DNA of 64,000 nucleotides from Xylanibacter ruminicola (GTDB taxonomy: Bacteria; Bacteroidota; Bacteroidia; Bacteroidales; Bacteroidaceae), in contig NZ_FRBD01000018.1 in the NCBI RefSeq assembly GCF_900142525.1, positions 1-64,000 of the forward strand, read 5' to 3'. A program made the position numbers and the translations under genes. Numbering within the stretch: position 1 is the first letter of the stretch; each line of letters begins with the position of its first letter. The notes under the pieces are model-generated. The model worked only from the letters and a program-made list of their open reading frames with translations, ran no database searches and had not been told where the DNA came from. This document shows positions 46,425 to 55,305 of the stretch, one piece after another.

Positions 46425-46497
46425 CGGGATTTAGCGCAGTTGGTAGCGCACACGTCTGGGGGGCGCGAGGTCGCTGGTTCGAGTCCAGTAATCCCGA
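46425..46497 (+). tRNA. tRNA-Pro (anticodon GGG)
   Basis: A 73-nt cloverleaf: acceptor CGGGATT/AATCCCG, D arm GCGC/GCGC, anticodon loop CTGGGGG, T-loop TTCGAGT, discriminator A. The anticodon stem CACGT/GCGCG has an A28-C42 mismatch and a T31-G39 wobble. A TACCTTTGC box (46372-46380) lies 45 bp upstream. Confidence 0.92.
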
Positions 46498-46503
46498 CAG
46501 AAG

Positions 46504-46540
46504 AGCGAGAGAATCGAAAGATTCCCTCGCTTTTTCTTTT
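46504..46540 (+). terminator. Terminator after tRNA-Pro
   Basis: AGCGAG-A-GAATC, GAAA loop, GATTC-C-CTCGCT, then a T-rich run. Confidence 0.85.
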
Positions 46541-46566
46541 TTGGCTGTTTGAAGTTGGCGGGCGGA

Positions 46567-47292
46567 TTAATAATGCTTGTTGTTATCTATTAAGAAGTGG
46601 AAGTTCTCGCCGCCAACGGGTATGTCGAGAATGATGTACTGCGACTTGATGGGTTTGATGGCGATGAAACCCTCATGCTCCTCACCATCAAATATCGTGT
46701 TGGCACGCCAATACTGCTCCTTTATCCGCTTGATTTCCTGCTGGTGCTCGTTCGACATCTCCTGATACAGACGGTCGTCGTATTTGTCTTCAATCAAACG
46801 GTCGGCGGCACGTTCTTCGGGCGAGCGATTGTCATCGCCACGAAGAGCATTAGCCCCTACTTTCACAGCACCATTTACCACACCAACCAACAGCGTGGAC
46901 CAAAAATTGGCTTTATTCTCAACCTTGATATATTTCTCGGGAGTATAGATTTTCAGTTGGTCTTTATCAAAGCCGAGCGTATCACCCTTAGCCAAGAAAC
47001 GCTCCACCCGATAGCGGGCAGACTTCGAAGAGACGCCAGGAATGGCGAAGGCGCTGGCGGTTATCTTCTGAGGCTCGAAGATGAACTCACGACCACTCTC
47101 GTTGATGATGGAGATGTGAGGTTCGAAGATACCACCTTGCGTAGGATCAACAACAACGGTTACGCCGTTGTGCGAACAATAGAACACGTGATGATCGTTC
47201 TTCACGAAAACGCCATACTCTTTCGCGTCGATCTCGGCCATAGCCGTAGCGCATACAAATGCCATTAACAGGCTTGATATCAGTTTCTTCAT
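46567..47292 (-). CDS. Secreted protein of unknown function
   Basis: The 241-residue protein has a signal peptide (MKKLISSLLMAFVCATAMA) and beta-rich sequence (GVTVVVDPTQGGIFEPHISI, GREFIFEPQKITASAFAI). A helical, charged stretch (SPEERAADRLIEDKYDDRLY) and a final strand region follow. No family is recognised. ATG 47292 is chosen over an upstream in-frame start because the -7 box TAACTTTGC (complement of 47322-47330) lies 30 nt upstream of it. Confidence 0.7.
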   Translation of the reverse strand: MKKLISSLLMAFVCATAMAEIDAKEYGVFVKNDHHVFYCSHNGVTVVVDPTQGGIFEPHISIINESGREFIFEPQKITASAFAIPGVSSKSARYRVERFLAKGDTLGFDKDQLKIYTPEKYIKVENKANFWSTLLVGVVNGAVKVGANALRGDDNRSPEERAADRLIEDKYDDRLYQEMSNEHQQEIKRIKEQYWRANTIFDGEEHEGFIAIKPIKSQYIILDIPVGGENFHFLIDNNKHY

Positions 47293-47424
47293 AATCAATG
47301 TTAGTTTTTTAATTTTCTGGTGCAAAGTTAAGCCATTTATGGCAACAAGATACAAGAATTCCCCTACGCGATGGTAGGGGAATCCCTAAAGTTTTTCTAT
47401 CTTTTGATGTGACGATACTATCTG

Positions 47425-47586
47425 CTACAAGAAATTCTTAGCAGGAATATGACGTATTACGTTGTCATCACCACAAACAATAACATTCTCATTGTTTCTG
47501 GCTTTTTCCTCCAACATCTCACGCTCAGCTATTTCTAAGCCGCGCGTAATCTTTTCTACCATTTGATTATGCTCTGCGCTTGACAT
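47425..47586 (-). CDS. 53-residue protein overlapping the zeta-toxin gene (putative antitoxin or partner)
   Basis: The frame begins MSSAEHNQMVEKITRGLEIA and ends NVIRHIPAKNFL. Its start lies 20 bp inside the 3' end of the zeta-type toxin gene on the same strand, so the two are translationally coupled. Small proteins with a KI-x-x-GLE helix followed by a strand like VIVCGDDNVIRHI are often encoded next to zeta-family kinases in Gram-negative genomes; antitoxin function is inferred from position only. The remaining gap to 47292 contains the promoter of the neighbouring gene. Confidence 0.65.
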   Translation of the reverse strand: MSSAEHNQMVEKITRGLEIAEREMLEEKARNNENVIVCGDDNVIRHIPAKNFL

Positions 47587-48154
47587 ATTCTTCTATCTTT
47601 TTAAATAAAACACTATTTCTAACTATTGTTTCCTGATTGTTTCCGCCAGAAGCAATTATACTTCTTGGGGTCTCACTATTATTGACCAAAAGCCAAGTAT
47701 CAACAATTGGCATATAAATGTTGAAAAGATTGTCGATACCTTCATAGTATCTTCTTTCTATGATGTCTTTTGGAATATTATGTCCGCCTTTACTTACCCT
47801 TTCTGCAACACGTTCCATTGCCTGCTCTGGTGATTTCAGCCAGAAATAGAGTAAGGTTACCTCATATCCCTGCTTATGGGCATTCTCTATTAAGCGAAAA
47901 TAAGAGCGAGTAGCAAGTGTGGTTTCAATAGAGAAACTCTCATTTCTTGATAAAAGGTCCTTTATTCGGCCAAGCATCAATCTGCCAGCTTCAATAGCCA
48001 CCCCTTCAGGGTTAAAAGGAGAGAGACCACGTGCTATTTCGTCTGCATTTACAAACTCTTTACAATGCAGGATTTTAGGCAAGACACTGTATGAAGCAGT
48101 AGTCTTACCAGCACCATTAGGGCCACTAATTATATAGAGATGTTTGTCTGCCAT
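47567..48154 (-). CDS. Zeta-toxin family P-loop kinase
   Basis: The 195-residue protein has Walker A GPNGAGKTTASYSV at residues 10-23, FVNADEIARGLSPFNPE (the substrate-side Asp), ETTLATRSY and a lid with Arg/Lys (ERVAERVSKGGHNIP, IIERRYYEGIDNLF). Zeta toxins phosphorylate UDP-N-acetylglucosamine and block wall synthesis; the chromosomal short form seen here is less studied. The -7 box TATCTTTGC (complement of 48162-48170) ends 7 nt before ATG 48154. The partner gene overlaps its 3' end. Confidence 0.85.
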   Translation of the reverse strand: MADKHLYIISGPNGAGKTTASYSVLPKILHCKEFVNADEIARGLSPFNPEGVAIEAGRLMLGRIKDLLSRNESFSIETTLATRSYFRLIENAHKQGYEVTLLYFWLKSPEQAMERVAERVSKGGHNIPKDIIERRYYEGIDNLFNIYMPIVDTWLLVNNSETPRSIIASGGNNQETIVRNSVLFKKIEEYVKRRA

Positions 48155-48229
48155 ATCGCCTGCAAAGATACGAACTTAATCCCTAAGTTCCAAACTTTTT
48201 ATCTTTTTATTTGCTTCTTCACGCAAAAT

Positions 48230-48266
48230 ATGACACTGTCATTTGTCACTTTGTCACGTGTCATGA
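48230..48266 (-). repeat. Iteron-like repeat, site 1
   Basis: ATGACACTGTCATTTGTCAC and onward match the complement of sites 2 and 4 with one base missing. It contains several GTCA/TGAC half-sites. See sites at 48521, 48670 and 52606. Confidence 0.7.
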
Positions 48267-48302
48267 TAGAGAGGGGGGCGCGAATCGCGACGGCCTTTGC
48301 GA

Positions 48303-48329
48303 GCTGACCCGACGAATCGTCGGGTCAGC
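48303..48329 (+). other. Strong GC-rich hairpin in the 48.15-48.78 kb gap
   Basis: GCTGACCCGACG and CGTCGGGTCAGC form a perfect 12-bp stem with an AAT loop, followed by CTTTTCG, terminator-like on the plus strand. The surrounding 48270-48480 region is GC-rich with further small inverted repeats and no reading frame, so a structured RNA or a protein-binding region is possible. Confidence 0.55.
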
Positions 48330-48520
48330 CTTTTCGATTTTAGGCCCCAAATTGAGAAAAAGGCAGCTCAGGATGAACGAAACGTACTTCGCGAGGCACG
48401 AAACATAGCTTATCGGCCCGATATCCGTAATCTCGTTTTAGGCGTGCTGGCGAGCGGTTTTTGCGGCTACACGTAGAAAAAATTTTTCCCTAGTAGGGTA
48501 GCAAATTCTACATTTAGAAC

Positions 48521-48549
48521 ATGACAAATATGACAAATGACAGCGTCAT
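48521..48549 (+). repeat. Iteron-like repeat, site 2
   Basis: A 29-bp element built of two ATGACAAA-type direct units and the inverted pair ATGAC-AGC-GTCAT. It differs from site 4 (52606-52634) at one base. Confidence 0.85.
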
Positions 48550-48590
48550 AATCGGCATGAGAGAATCAAGGAAAAATTCTAGAATAACAT

Positions 48591-48628
48591 CACTTATTAT
48601 ATAATATTATAATATTATATAATAAGTG
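48591..48628. repeat. Perfect 38-bp AT-rich palindrome
   Basis: The sequence from CACTTATTATAT to ATATAATAAGTG reads the same on both strands over 38 bp; the inner 34 bp are only A and T. It lies between iteron-like sites 2 and 3 and could melt easily or extrude a cruciform, as expected of a replication-origin unwinding region or a dimeric-protein site. Confidence 0.92.
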
Positions 48629-48669
48629 GTTTATTTATCGACTAATCCAGTTTACGCTCTGTATAAAAC

Positions 48670-48698
48670 ATGACATTGTCATTTGTCATGTTTGTCAC
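48670..48698 (-). repeat. Iteron-like repeat, site 3
   Basis: ATGACATTGTCATTTGTCAT and onward match the complement of site 2 at 25 of 29 positions. It is inverted relative to sites 2 and 4 and lies 42 bp upstream of the -7 box (TATCTTTGC, 48740-48748) of the following gene. Confidence 0.8.
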
Positions 48699-48777
48699 GA
48701 TTGGTCGCAGCGATGTTTGGTGGTATCGAAAATAATGCGTATCTTTGCACCTAGAAAAGATTAAAACCAAGATAACG

Positions 48778-49440
48778 ATGAACAATAATATTCTGAAACT
48801 AAAAGCGCCCTACAACATTATATATGCCGGGGGCCGCATAGGCAAGCACATTGCCACACTTACGGTATGGGATGACGACGACATGGACGTGTTTGGTGCA
48901 CGTCAGTATCCGATGATAGACGAGGGCGGCGAACTGCCTGCTGGAGCGCTGGCTTGCGAAGCCGAACTGCAGGACTGCCGAGTGATTTGCAACGAGCGCG
49001 ACCCACGCGTTACGCTACGCTGGCTGGCCAAGATCGTGGAGTACGACATGAAGCAGGAAGAGCCCGTAGAGTTTGGATACATGTGGGAGCGATTAGAGTT
49101 GCTCGGTGTTAAGCCCATTTGGGACAAAGCCAAGGACGAAGACGGCGAAGAATACAACCAGAACGTTTACAAGATAAGCCTATCGTTCGACGGAACTCAC
49201 GACCATATGATCGCCCAAAGCTACACCATATCTGGATTCTATTTCTATGCTCGCGGCACGGTCGAGGAGGTTTATAAGGAGCTGCACTATCAGCACGGCA
49301 TCTACGAATCGTGCTTTTATAACGACAACCTGGTGATAGAATTCAAAACTCCCGATGGATGGGAGCAGCGCATCGTTGACTTACTGAACAAGCGCAAAGA
49401 GAGCTACACGCCTGCCGAGAACGAAGAAGAACTAATATAA
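48778..49440 (+). CDS. Hypothetical protein, first gene of the replicon-like module
   Basis: The 220-residue soluble, acidic protein is rich in Tyr, Trp and Asp (TLTVWDDDDMDVFGARQYPM, YMWERLELLGVKPIWD) and matches no family I know. ATG 48778 is chosen because it follows the promoter box at 48740-48748; the upstream codons in frame lie inside that box. It is followed after 22 bp by the 190-residue gene, so they form an operon. Its position next to iteron-like repeats makes a DNA-processing or regulatory role plausible, but nothing in the sequence shows it. Confidence 0.65.
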   Translation: MNNNILKLKAPYNIIYAGGRIGKHIATLTVWDDDDMDVFGARQYPMIDEGGELPAGALACEAELQDCRVICNERDPRVTLRWLAKIVEYDMKQEEPVEFGYMWERLELLGVKPIWDKAKDEDGEEYNQNVYKISLSFDGTHDHMIAQSYTISGFYFYARGTVEEVYKELHYQHGIYESCFYNDNLVIEFKTPDGWEQRIVDLLNKRKESYTPAENEEELI

Positions 49441-49462
49441 ATAAGGAACGCGCGCGTACATT

Positions 49463-50035
49463 ATGAATATTAAAGACATACAACTACCGGCTATACCCGT
49501 AGACTTTGTGTTGCAGCAGGGCGAGAAAGAGCACACCGAAGCCAAACGCCGTCCCTACTCCACACTTATACGCACATGGGCCGAGCACGAGGGCAAAGCA
49601 GAAGTGGGCGACATGATAGCCAACAAGCTGAACCTGGGCAAGGAGAGCGACAAGCTTAAGAACCTTCAGGACCTGCCAAACTCGGTTGCACCCAAATACC
49701 GCAAAGGCGCCAAGGCAGAAAAGCTGGTAAACACAGTGCGACTGATAAACGACCGAATACAGAACGACAGCAACTGGACTTGGGCACTTGTAATGAAGGT
49801 GATGCTGGACGAGGGATTGCTGATGGTTAACATTCCCAACAAATTCGACCGCCTGATATGCTCGATGATTCCAGACAAGAACAGAGATACGGTAAGAAAG
49901 AACGGCGACTATTCTGTTATAGACGACAGCCGCTCGTGGCACAACTGGATAACAAACCCGCACGACAACTGGCGAGAGGCCACAAACTACGAGGTTTGCC
50001 AGGAGATTTATAGTTATCTGGAGTCGATATTCTGA
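49463..50035 (+). CDS. Hypothetical protein, second gene of the replicon-like module
   Basis: The 190-residue protein is hydrophilic and helical, with a Lys-rich centre (APKYRKGAKAEKLVNTVRLI) and a Trp/Asn-rich C-terminus (SWHNWITNPHDNWREATNYE). No family is recognised. It ends just before the phased TTCC array and a terminator, so transcription from the 48740 promoter probably stops at 50134-50176. Confidence 0.62.
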   Translation: MNIKDIQLPAIPVDFVLQQGEKEHTEAKRRPYSTLIRTWAEHEGKAEVGDMIANKLNLGKESDKLKNLQDLPNSVAPKYRKGAKAEKLVNTVRLINDRIQNDSNWTWALVMKVMLDEGLLMVNIPNKFDRLICSMIPDKNRDTVRKNGDYSVIDDSRSWHNWITNPHDNWREATNYEVCQEIYSYLESIF

Positions 50036-50044
50036 CTGATTTTA

Positions 50045-50120
50045 TCCGAAATTTTCCGAAGCCTTCCTAAACTTTCCAAGATTTTTCCAAAACCTTTCCG
50101 AAGTCTTTCCGAAATTTTCC
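50045..50120 (+). promoter_or_regulatory. Eight TTTCC motifs phased at 10-11 bp
   Basis: CC dinucleotides of TTTCCRAA-like motifs occur at 50046, 50056, 50066, 50076, 50087, 50098, 50109 and 50119, i.e. one per helical turn. Such phasing gives either intrinsic curvature (T-tracts on one face) or an array of sites on one face of the helix. It directly precedes the 779-residue gene and its promoter. Confidence 0.75.
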
Positions 50121-50133
50121 AAAACCACAAATG

Positions 50134-50176
50134 TGTACAATAACCCAAGTAAAAAAGGGCTATTGTACATTTTTTA
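50134..50176 (+). terminator. Terminator overlapping the next promoter
   Basis: TGTACAATAACCC / GGGCTATTGTACA (one mismatch) with a 10-nt loop and a run of T. The 3' arm contains the TTG that would serve as -33 element for the TATCTTTGC box at 50181-50189, so folding and initiation overlap. Confidence 0.85.
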
Positions 50177-50230
50177 TTTGTATCTTTGCATCGTTAAAAT
50201 AATGTTTCACCAGAAAAAAAAGCAAAAAGC

Positions 50231-52570
50231 ATGGAAAAGAGTATTGTAAAGAAAGTTGCAAAGACAACAATTTGTATGAATCAGACCCTGAACGCACCAA
50301 AGGCAAAGGGTCTGGTGATGGAACAGCCACTCGAAAATTACTTCGAGCTGACTAAGAGCGAAGAGCTGGCTAAGCTGATTGCAGCCATCCGCTTTGAGCA
50401 AGACCACGATGAGCGCCGCAATCTGAAGAGCAACCTGCCATTTCGCTGTCCTCACTACTTCCGCTTCAACGGCAATCGCCGTTCGCAGGCCAACATCATC
50501 CCTGAGGCATTTACATTCCAGACCTGCGTCGACATCGACAACAAGGAGCAGGTTGAGGGAGCACTAACTCGCGCGTACCTTATTAATAGCGAGGAGGGCC
50601 TGTGGAAAGACCATCTGCTACACGCCGAGTATTCAGCATCAGGCAAGCTGCATCTCGACATCCGCATCCCTGTGGGAATGACCATCAAGGAGGCACAAAC
50701 GGCCTACTGCAAAGAGCTGGGCATAGATTTTGATGAAGACTGCTGTTCGCCCGAGCGCATGATCTACATCACCGACGAAAGTTCGCAGCTATTCACCGCC
50801 CCCGATTGGTATGCCGAGTTGCCCGAGGAAGAAGTGACCGAGCGTCGCAAAGCTTATCTCGACCGCGGATTGAGCATCGATGGACAATCGCTCGATCAGA
50901 CCACCCCTAACCCCTCCCGCTCGGCTTTGCCGCTTGGCTTGTCCAAGAACTCAGGAGGGGAATACGCCAGCGACTACATGGGCATCCCTTACGAGTACAT
51001 CACCGACGAATTGGCCGATCAGCTTGGAGGCATACCCGTTCACGGCTCTCGCAACTCGTTCATCTACACCATGGCTTGCCATCTGCGCCACATCTGCAAC
51101 GACGACCCAGCGTGGATTAAGCAGGTGCTGCCAAACTACGGCGAAGACCAGCAGCGCGTTAACCAGACCATCGAGAGTGCATGCCATCGCCAGCAAACCA
51201 AGACTACACCGCAGAAGCTTCAGGCAGCCCTGCAGTTGGCCCGCAATCGCGTGAACATTGAGAAAGGCAACGACCCCGACTCGCTGATGCGTCAGCCCGA
51301 GATGCCATCTCGCCTGCCTGCCCCCATCCGCCTGTGCATATCGAAGGCACCCAAGGGTTATCAGCCATGTATTGCCAACTCCGTATTCCCAGCCTTTGCC
51401 ACCTACACTGGCGGCGTGAAGGCCGAATACTGGAACAACACCCAGATGGAGCTCACTCTGATTTCAGGTCTTGTGGCAGGCATGTCAATAGGTAAATCGT
51501 GCATCAAGGAGCCTATCGACCACATCTTGAAGCCAATAGAAGAGCGCGACAAGCTGGCGCGTGCCAAAGAGAAGGATTGGGCCGAGGAAACCAACACTAC
51601 AGGCGCTAACAACGACAAGCCTGAGCGCCCCAAAGACATCTGCGTGCAGATAGTGGATGCCGACATGACCAACGCCGCATTCTGTCAGCGAATGGAGGAT
51701 GCCGAGCGTGCTGGCGACAAGGCCCTCTTCACCCGAATGGACGAGGTAGAGCAGCTGAGGAAGGTGGCTGGAGGCTCAACATCGGAGGTCACCCAGATTA
51801 TCCGCCGCGACTTCGACAGCGATGTCTACGGTCAGGAGCGAGTAGGTTCGCAATCGGTGAAAGCCCGTTCTGTAATGCGCTGGAATCTGGTGTTCTCAAC
51901 CACACCCGCCACGGCCGTCAAGACCTTCGGTGGCAACATCGACAACGGTACTTTTTCGCGACTCAACCTCTGCACCATCGTGAAGGAAGATGTGGAGCGT
52001 CGCCCCAAATTCGGGCATTACGATGGAACGTTCGACAAGAAACTGTCGCAGTATCTGGCGCGTCTCGAATCGGCCAAAGGTGTCATCGTGTGTCCTCAGG
52101 CCAAGAAACTAGCCGAAGCGCTGCTGGATCGTGCCGAAGAGCGTGCGCTGATGATGGGCAATGAGTCGTACACACAGCTGTCGTACCGTGCCACAGCCAT
52201 CGCCTTTCGTAAGAGCATACTCCTCTACATCATGTGCGGCATGAAGTGGAGCAAGGAGATCGAGGATTTTATAACCTGGACATTCGATTACGACATGTGG
52301 TGCAAGATGTGCCTGATGGGCGACACCATCAAGCAGAAGCTGGAGCACGACAGCAAGATCATGAAGCCCGGTCTACCCTGCATGCTCGAACAGCTTGGCG
52401 ACACATTCACCCGCGAGGAGTACAATGTGCTGGAGCGTGTAGAGTGCCCCAACGCCAAGCAGCGCGGCAATCTTCTGTCTCAGTGGAAACGTCGCGGCTG
52501 GGTAGAGCAGAACACCGAGCTGAACATCTTCGTGAAAACCCAAGAGTACTACCAAAAGCATGCGGCATAG
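50231..52570 (+). CDS. VirE-N/DUF3987-type protein (primase/helicase-like)
   Basis: The 779-residue protein has an N-terminal region like the BT4734/VirE-N domain (about residues 40-200; PHYFRFNGNRRSQANIIPEA, FTFQTCVDIDNKEQVEGALT, HLDIRIPVGMTIKEAQTAYC). A C-terminal DUF3987-like part follows (from about 400; MSIGKSCIKEPIDHIL, WNLVFSTTPATAVKTFGGNI-D-N-G-T-F-S-R-L-N). Related proteins accompany mobile islands in Bacteroides and are thought to be replication-associated. An obvious Walker A is degenerate (AGMSIGKS). Residues about 222-244 (QTTPNPSRSALPLGLSKNSG) are encoded by an inserted REP-like element without breaking the frame. It has its own promoter (50181-50189). Confidence 0.75.
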   Translation: MEKSIVKKVAKTTICMNQTLNAPKAKGLVMEQPLENYFELTKSEELAKLIAAIRFEQDHDERRNLKSNLPFRCPHYFRFNGNRRSQANIIPEAFTFQTCVDIDNKEQVEGALTRAYLINSEEGLWKDHLLHAEYSASGKLHLDIRIPVGMTIKEAQTAYCKELGIDFDEDCCSPERMIYITDESSQLFTAPDWYAELPEEEVTERRKAYLDRGLSIDGQSLDQTTPNPSRSALPLGLSKNSGGEYASDYMGIPYEYITDELADQLGGIPVHGSRNSFIYTMACHLRHICNDDPAWIKQVLPNYGEDQQRVNQTIESACHRQQTKTTPQKLQAALQLARNRVNIEKGNDPDSLMRQPEMPSRLPAPIRLCISKAPKGYQPCIANSVFPAFATYTGGVKAEYWNNTQMELTLISGLVAGMSIGKSCIKEPIDHILKPIEERDKLARAKEKDWAEETNTTGANNDKPERPKDICVQIVDADMTNAAFCQRMEDAERAGDKALFTRMDEVEQLRKVAGGSTSEVTQIIRRDFDSDVYGQERVGSQSVKARSVMRWNLVFSTTPATAVKTFGGNIDNGTFSRLNLCTIVKEDVERRPKFGHYDGTFDKKLSQYLARLESAKGVIVCPQAKKLAEALLDRAEERALMMGNESYTQLSYRATAIAFRKSILLYIMCGMKWSKEIEDFITWTFDYDMWCKMCLMGDTIKQKLEHDSKIMKPGLPCMLEQLGDTFTREEYNVLERVECPNAKQRGNLLSQWKRRGWVEQNTELNIFVKTQEYYQKHAA
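50896..50962 (-). repeat. REP-like element inside the DUF3987-type gene
   Basis: TCAGACCACCCCTAACCCCT and the following CC match exactly the complement of 38510-38531. CGCTCGGCTTTGCCGCTTGG matches the complement of 38605-38624 at 18 of 20 positions. GGAGGGGAA closes it as in the intergenic copy. Confidence 0.82.
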
Positions 52571-52605
52571 CCCGCATGTTTTTTTTATGCCCGAATCATG
52601 ACACC

Positions 52606-52634
52606 ATGACAAACATGACAAATGACAGCGTCAT
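52606..52634 (+). repeat. Iteron-like repeat, site 4
   Basis: It matches site 2 (48521-48549) at 28 of 29 positions in the same orientation and lies 35 bp after the stop of the 779-residue gene, so sites 2 and 4 flank the three-gene module as direct repeats. An extra ATGACACC half-unit precedes it. Confidence 0.85.
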
Positions 52635-52705
52635 AATTAGTGATGGCTTGGGGGTTTTTATTGAAGAAATCTTGATTATTATTTGGAGGCTATTGCTTTT
52701 TTGCT

Positions 52706-52714
52706 TATATTTGC
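52706..52714 (+). promoter_or_regulatory. -7 box of the Sel1-repeat gene
   Basis: TATATTTGC, with TTTG about 20 bp upstream (52682-52685); ATG 52750 follows about 35 nt later. Confidence 0.65.
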
Positions 52715-52749
52715 AAGCGTATTACCAATAACATAAAAGAAGAGGCGAC

Positions 52750-53760
52750 ATGAAAAAGAATCTGTTTCTATTACTATTACTGATGATGCCTGTGCTGGCT
52801 CTGGCGCAAGATGATTACAAGAAAAATATCGAGGCGGCGATGAATGGCGATGCCAAGGCTCAAAACACTATCGGTATGTGTTATATTAATGGTGATGGTG
52901 TAGCTAAGGACTATACTCAGGCTGTATCTTGGTTCCGCAAAGCGGCTGAACAGGGCGATATGTACGGAATGTTCAATCTGGGCTGTTGCTATGATAACGG
53001 TCAAGGCGTTAACAAAGATGCGACTCAAGCTGTATTCTGGTATCGCAAGGCTGCTGATAAGGGACATATTACTGCCCAGTACAATCTTGGCTGTTACTAT
53101 GAATCCGGAAATGGTGTAGAGAAAGATCTCTCTCAGGCGGTTTCTTGGTATCGCAAAGCTGCGGAACAGGGATATGCCAGTGCTCAAAACAACCTGGGAA
53201 TATGCTATATCAATGGAAAAGGGGTTACTAAAGACTACGATCAGGCTGTTTTCTGGTTCCGCAAGGCTACCGAAAAGGGACATGCAAATTCGCAATATCT
53301 GTTAGGTCTGTGTTATATAGACGGCTTTGGTGTAGAAAAAGATTTTGCTAAAGCAGCCTCTTGGATTATGAAGGCAGCAGAACGAGGATATGCAAATGCG
53401 CAATTCAAAATGGGCGATTGCTACTATTATGGCCAAGGCGTAGAACAAGACTATGCTCAAGCTGTATTTTGGTATACCAAAGCGGCTGAGAAGGGGCACA
53501 TAGGTGCCCAAACCAGCTTGGGCGTGTGCTATTATGACGGCAAGGGCGTTGCAAAAGATTTGGCGAAAGCCATCTTCTGGTATCGCAAGGCCGCTGATAA
53601 AGGACAGGTTAATGCCCAATACAACTTAGGAATCTGCTATGAATACGCTCAAGGAGTCGAGAAAGACATAGCCCAAGCCATCTTCTGGTATCGCAAGGCT
53701 GCCGCACAGGGACATCAGAAAGCACAAGATGCACTACAAAAACTAGAGGGCCAGCAATAA
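52750..53760 (+). CDS. Secreted Sel1-repeat protein
   Basis: The 336-residue protein has a signal peptide (to about residue 19) and eight Sel1-type repeats of 36 residues, each with the A-Q-x-x-L-G-x-C-Y-x-x-G-x-G-V-x-K-D and A-x-x-W-Y-R-K-A-A pattern. Sel1 repeats form a solenoid for protein-protein contacts. It lies 115 bp after iteron site 4. Its stop codon abuts that of the convergent GH2-like gene with no spacer and no terminator visible. Confidence 0.9.
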   Translation: MKKNLFLLLLLMMPVLALAQDDYKKNIEAAMNGDAKAQNTIGMCYINGDGVAKDYTQAVSWFRKAAEQGDMYGMFNLGCCYDNGQGVNKDATQAVFWYRKAADKGHITAQYNLGCYYESGNGVEKDLSQAVSWYRKAAEQGYASAQNNLGICYINGKGVTKDYDQAVFWFRKATEKGHANSQYLLGLCYIDGFGVEKDFAKAASWIMKAAERGYANAQFKMGDCYYYGQGVEQDYAQAVFWYTKAAEKGHIGAQTSLGVCYYDGKGVAKDLAKAIFWYRKAADKGQVNAQYNLGICYEYAQGVEKDIAQAIFWYRKAAAQGHQKAQDALQKLEGQQ

Positions 53761-55305
53761 TTACCTCACTTCAATCTCCCAGCTGTTGCGAACGGTGTTT
53801 GCACCAACCGTCAGGGTTAAGGTGAGTTTGCAGGGGGCCTTGATGCTGTCTAGGGGGAACACTATCTCGCCCACACGATTGCAAGGAGCCAAGGGGATTT
53901 GGCCCGAGGCAATCAGTCCGCCAGTAACCACCTGATTGCTATCGGTGTGCAGATAGTAATTGGTGCGCACGCCTTGCAGATGGCCATACATGGCATTATA
54001 AACCACCACGGGCACTCGCAGCGTGTCGCTAGTGGTATAGCTAGTTCTATCTAGCTGCACCAGCGGTATGATGGGGCGGCAGAACTGCTGGAAGTCGTCA
54101 GCCACAAAGCCAGCATCCTTATCAGTCCATCGTGCATGCAGCACTCCACTGAAGTCGCCACGGCGATCGCAGATGCCACCAAGCAAGAAGTGGCCACAGC
54201 TATCGGTAAGCAATCGCTGCTCAACACCTAGCTTGTATTGCATCAAATCGTTAGCATATATCACATCGCGATTAAGCTTAATAGGGGCGATATATCCATT
54301 GTTCCACACATAGCACGAATCGCCAACCGACATAAGCACCAGCGAGGGGTGATGGCCATAGACATCGGCTATGCGACCAAGCTCGTAATGACTGGCGGCC
54401 TCGGTCTGAAGATACATTCCAACCTTATCGGCAGCTACAAAAGCAGCCTCGGTAGGACAATAGCCATTAAAGCGCACGTGGTTAAGCCCCATAGACTCAA
54501 GTCGACGGAAAATGCGCTCCCACGTATGCTCATCGGTAGGCATGCGGCCCCATTCTGGGAAATAATCGTCGATTACAGCTCCACGCAGATAAACGGGGTG
54601 ACGATTGATGAACAGCATGCCATCAACAACCGCAGCCTCGCGCATACCAAAGGTCATCTCCCGATAGTCATCAGCTACACTCAGCGCCATACGATACACA
54701 TTTGGGGTAAACTCATCCCAGAAGCGGTCCTGCTCTGGAACAGCCACATCCACCTCCATGCGATTGGCCCATATATCCTCATTAGCAAGGAAGATGGCAG
54801 CAGAATCTTTGTTCTCGTGCTGAACCATAATCTGAATGCCATAGAAGCTGAAATCGGGCGACTGACCACGCAAATCTAAATCGACACCAACCGTAGCGCT
54901 ATAAGGCTTAGGGTTAAGTGTTACCTTATTTATATATAGGTTACGCGGTTGAGCACGTAATTCTACCGAACCAAGAATGCCGCGAGCATCATGACCAGCC
55001 ACCTTAATCTCGATGGTGTTACGTTGTCCGGCCTGGATATACTTGGTAACATTGAGCACATGCGGAACGAACTTAGCTGTATCGCCTCCAGCCTCGGAAC
55101 CATTAACACGAACGCTGGTGGCACCAAGCGGGCGCTCGATGAAAAGCTGAATGTGTTTTTTAGACCACTTCTGAGGTACATAAACACTCTGACGATACAC
55201 TGCAGCACTATCGGCATAGGCTGGTTCAAGCAGTTTCACTACATCCTGCGCCACAACGGGCAAACACGATACCAAGAATATTATGGTAGATATAATCTGT
55301 TTCAT
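53761..55305 (-). CDS. GH2-like protein, probable pseudoenzyme
   Basis: The 514-residue secreted protein has a signal peptide (MKQIISTIIFLVSCLPVVAQ), a GH2-type N-terminal sandwich (ARGILGSVELRAQPRNLYI), a middle immunoglobulin-like domain, and a TIM-barrel part (GMLFINRHPVYLRGAVIDD, GLNHVRFNGYCPTEAAFVAA, MYLQTEA). In GH2 enzymes the next strand ends in G-N-E, the acid/base; here it reads HHPSLVLMSVGDSCY, so both Asn and Glu are lost. It is also shorter than usual. A binding or structural role is more likely than catalysis. The -7 box (complement of 55310-55318) lies 4 nt from the ATG. Confidence 0.75.
   Translation of the reverse strand: MKQIISTIIFLVSCLPVVAQDVVKLLEPAYADSAAVYRQSVYVPQKWSKKHIQLFIERPLGATSVRVNGSEAGGDTAKFVPHVLNVTKYIQAGQRNTIEIKVAGHDARGILGSVELRAQPRNLYINKVTLNPKPYSATVGVDLDLRGQSPDFSFYGIQIMVQHENKDSAAIFLANEDIWANRMEVDVAVPEQDRFWDEFTPNVYRMALSVADDYREMTFGMREAAVVDGMLFINRHPVYLRGAVIDDYFPEWGRMPTDEHTWERIFRRLESMGLNHVRFNGYCPTEAAFVAADKVGMYLQTEAASHYELGRIADVYGHHPSLVLMSVGDSCYVWNNGYIAPIKLNRDVIYANDLMQYKLGVEQRLLTDSCGHFLLGGICDRRGDFSGVLHARWTDKDAGFVADDFQQFCRPIIPLVQLDRTSYTTSDTLRVPVVVYNAMYGHLQGVRTNYYLHTDSNQVVTGGLIASGQIPLAPCNRVGEIVFPLDSIKAPCKLTLTLTVGANTVRNSWEIEVR

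Follow-up and report, generated by a model that had tools for sequence, protein, structure and literature searches.

A putative minimal replicon with iterons and an AT palindrome in the chromosome of Xylanibacter ruminicola

Related replication modules and layout of the locus

For Staphylococcus aureus pathogenicity islands (SaPIs), the parts of two papers covered here describe Rep helicases that bind short iterons located just after the helicase gene itself, with AEP primases accompanying these helicases (PMC7581432, PMC7145576). The same parts describe phage-inducible chromosomal islands (PICIs) and staphylococcal cassette chromosome mec (SCCmec) modules with an initiator helicase, an AEP primase, and iterons directly behind the helicase gene (PMC7581432, PMC7145576). 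A comparable module was found in a 64,000-nucleotide stretch of Xylanibacter ruminicola DNA (contig NZ_FRBD01000018.1, positions 1 to 64,000; hereafter the window). It contains three genes (p1, p2, and p3) and four iteron blocks (R1 to R4, or R in general, with + and - for orientation). As in SaPIs and PICIs, one block (R4) stands behind the putative initiator gene p3, and block sequence co-varies with p3. Unlike in SaPIs, PICIs, and SCCmec, however, primase and helicase appear to be combined in one protein of the BT4734/DUF3987 family, a perfect AT palindrome separates two inverted iteron blocks ahead of the operon, the R blocks enclose neither an integrase gene nor packaging genes, and gene-less and single-R copies occur.

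Plasmids offer further parallels. In the portions of the sources covered, RSF1010 has iterons and stem-loop priming sites (PMC4234260, PMC4434180), and the window module resembles RSF1010-type and other iteron plasmids in its iterons, stem-loop, and helicase/primase, with iterons and an AT-rich region near a candidate initiator gene. However, RSF1010 has three separate Rep proteins, whereas here one large protein is encoded in the chromosome and no plasmid copy was found. Similarly, pRN1 has a primase-helicase beside a stem-loop, needed there for replication, according to the part of PMC4234260 covered; unlike the window module, pRN1 is a free plasmid without iterons, and its stem-loop lies behind the gene. 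AEP/DUF3987 proteins have been linked to the replication of mobile elements (PMC5862659, in part). The word "iteron" is absent from the main text of that paper, and its passages covered here hold no origin description for the family. No description of this type of origin for BT4734-like proteins was found in the portions of the open-licence literature covered. Finally, PINSR of Prevotella intermedia is likewise a dispersed non-coding Prevotella repeat, but it differs in being 188 bp long without terminal inverted repeats, as far as the covered part of its description goes (PMC4755523).

The best reading is a family of small integrated replicons that would lack an integrase of their own, have SaPI-like or iteron-plasmid-like origins, and be accompanied by origin-only relatives. 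For the window module, it is rather probable that the unit is a minimal replicon in the chromosome, with p3 reading its own iterons and with R2+, the AT palindrome, and R3- serving as the origin. The parts, in order, are:

48225-48264, minus strand: iteron block R1, from the repeat analysis, with a core match at 48230-48248
48265-48519: non-coding spacer between R1 and R2, similar to the spacer of gene-less elements on contig C16 of the same genome and in genomes G291 and G131
48520-48552, plus strand: iteron block R2, from the repeat analysis and core match
48591-48628: AT palindrome of 38 bp, perfect, where the origin may melt or form a hairpin, with symmetry conserved among loci
48665-48697, minus strand: iteron block R3 in front of p1, from the repeat analysis and core match
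48778-49440, plus strand: p1, 220 amino acids, from a family of at least 20 members
49463-50035, plus strand: p2, 190 amino acids, helical, co-varying with p1
50043-50120, plus strand: helically phased TTTCC array in front of p3, from a phasing test against shuffles
50231-52570, plus strand: p3, 779 amino acids, primase-helicase family (relatives of BT4734-like_N plus DUF3987), with the CVDID and GKS motifs kept
52605-52637, plus strand: iteron block R4 behind p3, a direct copy of R2, from the repeat analysis and core match

The spacer also contains a GC-rich inverted repeat with 13-bp arms (48303-48329).

Conserved layout and the protein that the iterons follow

The initial annotation of the window had described a TGAC/GTCA element in four copies, two per orientation, and the analysis bore this out. 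The exact core TGACAAATGACANNGTCAT occurs at 48230-48248 (-), 48531-48549 (+), 48670-48688 (-), and 52616-52634 (+). With up to three mismatches, six occurrences were observed against a shuffle mean of 0.30, and none of 100 shuffles reached six, which rules out a chance origin of the repeats. Three further claims of that annotation also stood. Copies 2 and 4 (R2 and R4) are direct repeats around the three genes, with 97% identity over 33 bp. The perfect 38-bp AT palindrome lies between copies 2 and 3 as described, and its single strand has a predicted folding z-score of -7.2 relative to shuffles. The TTTCC array before the largest gene is helically phased, with seven TTCC motifs and 11 helically spaced pairs between p2 and p3 versus a shuffled mean of 0.10 (p=0.003).

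The exact core is present in five of 150 same-genus genomes, and the p1 profile matches 43 of 398 genomes at E <= 1e-4, with many weak matches; both counts include the genome of the window. A set of 20 modules with p1, p2, and p3 was compiled from 18 genomes of one genus. Outside this set are L090 (no p3 match in its stretch) and the distant L098, and L102-L106 are not counted. Open frames for p1 and p2 are present in all 20 modules, and a full-length p3 frame in 19 (that of L081 is broken). The TTCC array is helically phased in every module (each p <= 0.05). Automatic detection found an inverted iteron pair upstream of p1 in 16 modules, 13 of which repeat these iterons behind p3. In eight of the 20, the inverted blocks enclose a perfect palindrome of 36-42 bp, and L082 and other loci have near-perfect ones. 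For ten palindromes, the arm agreement within a locus is high (mean 0.979, lowest 0.895), whereas the agreement between loci has a mean of 0.598 (highest 1.000) and 18 of 19 columns are variable. The symmetry of the palindrome is maintained while its sequence drifts.

The iteron sequences differ by module (TGACAAATGACA, TGACAGATGACA, CGATGACACCGATGACA, TTCTGACAATTCTGACA, TTCACAATTCACAG, TTGTGACAATTGTGACA, and others), and their co-variation with the three proteins was expressed as Mantel rho without tree correction, using automatically chosen R blocks from 16 modules upstream and 13 downstream. For the upstream R, located beside p1, rho was 0.62 (p=0.0005) with residues 245-400 of p3 and 0.38-0.59 with the other three p3 parts, compared to -0.03 with p1 and -0.08 with p2. 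The downstream R gave 0.64-0.78 with p3, 0.11 with p1, and 0.13 with p2. The proteins p1 and p2 co-vary with each other (rho 0.87) and not with p3 (0.16 and 0.14, respectively). For L087, this test used a pair on the R1/R2 side that has the opposite orientation, a choice that biases against the result; for L081, only the second part of p3 was used, and this member is outside the 19-member p3 alignment. Since R similarity tracks p3 rather than p1 or p2, even beside p1, p3 is most likely the iteron reader and, judging from sequence, is predicted to read the iterons of its own module.

Individual comparisons with hand-picked R blocks show the same separation. L079 and L080 have equal iterons and p3 identities of 91-100% beyond residue 240, with 70% in p1. 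L088 and L092 have similar iterons and p3 identities of 72-93%, with 56% in p1. In the reverse case, L041 and L079 have 90% identity in p1, but differ in iteron units and have only 33-67% identity in p3 beyond residue 300. In addition, L126 and L219 contain R, a palindrome, and p3, and neither locus has a match to p1 or p2; of these p3-only modules, L219 has a phased array and L126 has none. S. copri iA622 (L221) has an AT stretch bordered by GTTAAC iterons before a different first gene, which we take to be HIRAN-like, and a p3 relative, and these iterons recur about 950 bp behind p3. The hybrid modules, the p3-only loci, and L221 therefore indicate that p3 with R and the palindrome is the predicted core and that p1-p2 is an exchangeable pair. 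The earlier suggestion that two unknown proteins control the cassette was not supported, given that iteron similarity follows neither p1 nor p2 and that two modules have p3 only. The DNA between p2 and p3 is longer in L087 and L088 (about 1.9 kb and 1.0 kb extra, respectively), and the L088 insert has a 267-amino-acid frame.

Searches of Pfam, PHROGs, PADLOC, and NCBIfam gave no significant match for the window p3 itself. Among the 19 aligned p3 members, seven match BT4734-like_N (best E-value 3.4e-8) and nine match DUF3987 (best 1.6e-9) at E <= 1, and p3 is assigned to the BT4734-like/DUF3987 modules of Bacteroidales through these family members. BT4734-like_N is VirE_N under a new name, so the VirE-N/DUF3987 label first given to p3 applies to the family, but finds no direct match in the window protein. 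The sequence TCVDID corresponds to AEP motif I, with D101 and D103 invariant in all 19 aligned members; the motif is defined as hhhDhD/E in the part of PMC5862659 covered. The P-loop residues G421, K422, and S423 are also invariant in 19/19. A candidate for motif II (sxH) is KLH at 139-141 of the window p3, with the H outside the invariant or nearly invariant alignment columns. The structural model of p2 is helical (mean predicted local distance difference test score, pLDDT, 86.0), and a fold search with it gave no useful match.

Gene-less copies and R-bounded presence and absence

In the genome of the window, the exact core is found in two places only, namely the window contig and C16, where the copies adjoin a transfer-messenger RNA (tmRNA) gene. 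The parts on C16 follow the order seen in the window: R-, R+, a perfect 38-bp palindrome of different sequence, and another R- that carries two mismatches. None of the three genes is present; across spacer, R2, palindrome, and R3 its identity to the window is 68%. The expectation, set beforehand, that the repeat would not occur widely outside the gene set literally failed, but what occurs outside the set is gene-less R-palindrome-R elements, pairs, and single R's. A second, divergent full module on C19 combines iterons of the GTGAANT type with a 42-bp palindrome that has one mismatch, genes resembling p1, p2, and p3 (the p2-like gene assigned by position), and iterons behind p3. C31 has one degenerate single R. 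The genome has 16 matches to p3, some of which are pieces of one gene.

Two loci can be compared among genomes. At the first, which we take to be that of dapA, G322 has a full module (L082), G257 has a p3-only module (L126), and G131 has only R1, spacer, and R (L044). The G131 sequence agrees with that of G257 through R2 and resumes the match at R4, and the overlap is R itself. No iteron pair was detected in the 900 bp covered at this site in 15 of the 18 genomes matching there (20 searched), so R seems to have arrived with the element, and the G131 state is most simply interpreted as a putative remnant. Left of R1, G131 is rearranged, with an inverted tRNA segment (L044 106-275). Such end points of rearrangement or deletion near R were seen in G131 and also between G275 and G334 (L121, L122).

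At the second locus, G291 has a 434-bp gene-less element (R1-, spacer, R2+, palindrome, R3-) with 72% identity to its window counterpart. The genome of the window has a single degenerate R there, bordered on the left by the sequence that flanks R1 in G291 and on the right by the sequence that flanks R3, and G334 has neither the element nor a single R. In this one resolved pair of filled and single-R sites, the ends are direct R copies without a target-site duplication. The initial annotation had offered att-like ends as an alternative, and this holds in part. As in att-ended integrative elements, one R replaces the segment between direct R's at the dapA and 434-bp loci, a pattern that looks the same after deletion, but profile searches with p1, p2, and p3 found no encoded site-specific recombinase. 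Gains and losses can both yield such presence/absence patterns. For the insertion of the module in the window, the genomes compared offered no clean empty site: G337 and G255 lack the module but have the place filled by other genes, and G291 has one R+ in the region with non-homologous neighbors. The tmRNA locus of C16 has no clean empty site either; G334, G291, and G337 differ in the distance between the flanking genes and have other sequence in between.

Right flanks beyond R fall into 16 clusters among 17 usable ones and left flanks into 14 among 16, with flanks shorter than 500 bp left out. Some module pairs share a site, and L041 and L079 share the right flank. With flanks mostly distinct, the module therefore occupies many places. 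Candidate p3 loci in named genomes number 386. The best 80 of these are mostly from Prevotella or Prevotellaceae assemblies, many of them ruminant, and also from Segatella copri, Bacteroides, and others; all titles of these 80 name what we take to be Bacteroidales taxa. A strict palindrome with inverted arms is present in 18 of 73 usable named-genome p3 loci versus none of 60 control windows, which overlap one another and all come from one 47.5-kb stretch of the window. The pattern of R+ and R- upstream with the same word behind p3 was found in 25 of 74 named-genome loci versus 44 of 733 swapped controls, a control that is not clean given that related loci share iterons.

Competing explanations and significance

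If the module is a replicon, p3 would assemble on the two inverted iteron blocks R2 and R3; the AT palindrome would melt, possibly forming a hairpin on each strand as a priming site, and p3 would unwind and prime. Recombination between R2 and R4 could release or delete a unit with a complete origin, leaving one R. The p1-p2 pair would probably provide regulators or accessory factors. Gene-less R1-R2-palindrome-R3 elements would be origin-only relatives (satellites) that the same iterons could allow to be copied in trans, and single R's would be scars. We infer from sequence patterns the binding of p3 to R, replication, circles, action in trans, and integration without an encoded integrase. The integrated or dormant replicon proposed in the initial annotation gains partial support from the conserved layout, the co-variation of iterons with p3, and the R-bounded presence and absence, whereas no plasmid copy was found and autonomous copying is a prediction.

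Several results weigh against this replicon reading. Plasmid records contain no match for p1, p3, or the whole unit, and phage records yielded only two remote partial p3 matches (21.7% and 24.9% identity). The only genes between R1 and R4 are p1, p2, and p3, none of which matches an integrase or site-specific recombinase in Pfam, PHROGs, PADLOC, or NCBIfam, and deletion between direct repeats would also leave single-R sites. Strict palindrome structure is absent from 55 of the 73 usable named-genome p3 loci, most of the more distant p3 relatives are without the full architecture by strict tests, and six other stretches with p3 relatives in the genome of the window (L100, L101, L013-L016) have no palindrome. 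The possibility, raised at the outset, that the genes occur without repeats or palindrome was borne out in part, in that four of the 20 modules (L084, L089, L093, L095) have no automatically detected upstream R pair, while the other 16 do. L089, with a doubtful R, is also an exception to the co-variation, combining an L084-like p3 with an upstream iteron remnant of another type, and the co-variation statistics ignore kinship.

Other searches for extrachromosomal copies gave little. No match was found for p1 in phage and viral-contig searches or for p3 in viral contigs, and the one core match in a viral contig (L040) lies inside coding sequence and looks like chance. The phage records with remote p3 relatives, MT839699.1 and MT838840.1, are short unannotated faecal records (4086 and 5466 bp). 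Among 16 loci checked for circular contigs, some of which are duplicates of one contig and one of which (L126) is not a whole contig, only L249 has an end overlap; it carries a distant relative with other genes. This overlap is exact over 134 bp, and the contig (L249 1-8886), which has regulator-like genes besides the distant p3 relative, may be circular or may represent a tandem copy.

The module may alternatively consist of replication genes that larger islands or prophages left behind as fossils, with single R's and the presence/absence patterns produced by ordinary deletion between direct repeats and nothing moving or replicating today. Distant p3 relatives adjoin genes that we take to be HU-like and DUF5675-like, no extrachromosomal copy was found, and deletion between direct repeats explains single R's. 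Nevertheless, this explanation is considered unlikely: p1 and p2 are open in every module and p3 is full-length in all but one, the flanks mostly differ, and selection is needed because the palindrome keeps its symmetry despite sequence change and the iterons co-vary with p3.

It is quite unlikely that the R blocks are transposon ends served by p1 as an RNase H-like transposase or recombinase, with the gene-less elements as counterparts of miniature inverted-repeat transposable elements (MITEs). Dispersed copies with R at their ends would agree with this idea, as would the AlphaFold model of p1 (mean pLDDT 76.5), whose C-terminal part shows a weak RNase H-like topology. With Foldseek, p1 has weak matches to retroviral integrases and to recombinases of the IS110 type (best E 0.032); in VIA-align the Z of 7.3 is to a designed protein, with all others at 4.8 or below (4.8 for the ISCro4 complex). 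However, none of the first-strand acidic residues is conserved in the p1 alignment, R does not track p1, and p3-only modules exist. Terminal inverted repeats with a target-site duplication, as in MITEs and DNA transposons, were not seen at the one resolved pair, where the ends of the gene-less element are direct and without duplication.

Least likely is a regulated operon, not a replicon, in which p1, p2, or a host regulator would bind the R blocks as operators of the p1-p2 and p3 transcripts and the palindrome would be regulatory: R3 lies about 80 bp before p1, R1 lies in front of a zeta-toxin-like gene, p1-p2 look accessory or regulatory, and operators resemble iterons, but the R beside p1 tracks p3 (which rules out operators read by p1 or p2 as the leading explanation), R4 sits behind p3, and gene-less R-palindrome-R elements occur elsewhere.

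More tentatively than the replicon reading itself, these modules may represent a new class of integrase-free chromosomal replicons of Bacteroidales, in which a single primase-helicase would read lineage-specific iterons around a self-complementary AT origin, iterons would also be recombination ends, p1-p2 would be swapped without restriction, and satellites consisting of the origin alone, together with scars of one iteron, would be spread in trans. If laboratory work confirms the copying, the module would represent a type of integrated element that is new. BT4734-like/DUF3987 genes are recurrent in these genomes. An origin and its matched initiator, defined within about 4 kb, would bring the role of these genes within direct experimental reach, might yield small vectors for Prevotella and relatives, and would show how integrated replicons spread and gain gene-less copies without an encoded integrase. 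Since p1-p2 and p3 have been exchanged independently, natural hybrids exist with which the part of p3 that reads the iterons could be mapped.

The module adjoins a zeta-toxin-like gene on the R1 side (47567-48154; Pfam E 5.8e-10) and a Sel1-repeat gene on the R4 side (52750-53760). These two genes are not counted as module parts because neither was found near the G136 module. The region 46425-53766, from tRNA-Pro to the gene ending at 53761, has different gene fillings in G337, G255, G291, and G275 and is hotspot-like. An 83% identical copy of the zeta-toxin-like gene is present in G109. Just upstream of this copy are two other AT palindromes flanked by inverted iterons, one of the ATGCATACC type and one of another type, without p1-p3 (L123 2879-2922, 3217-3248, and 3459-4091 for the palindromes and the gene together).

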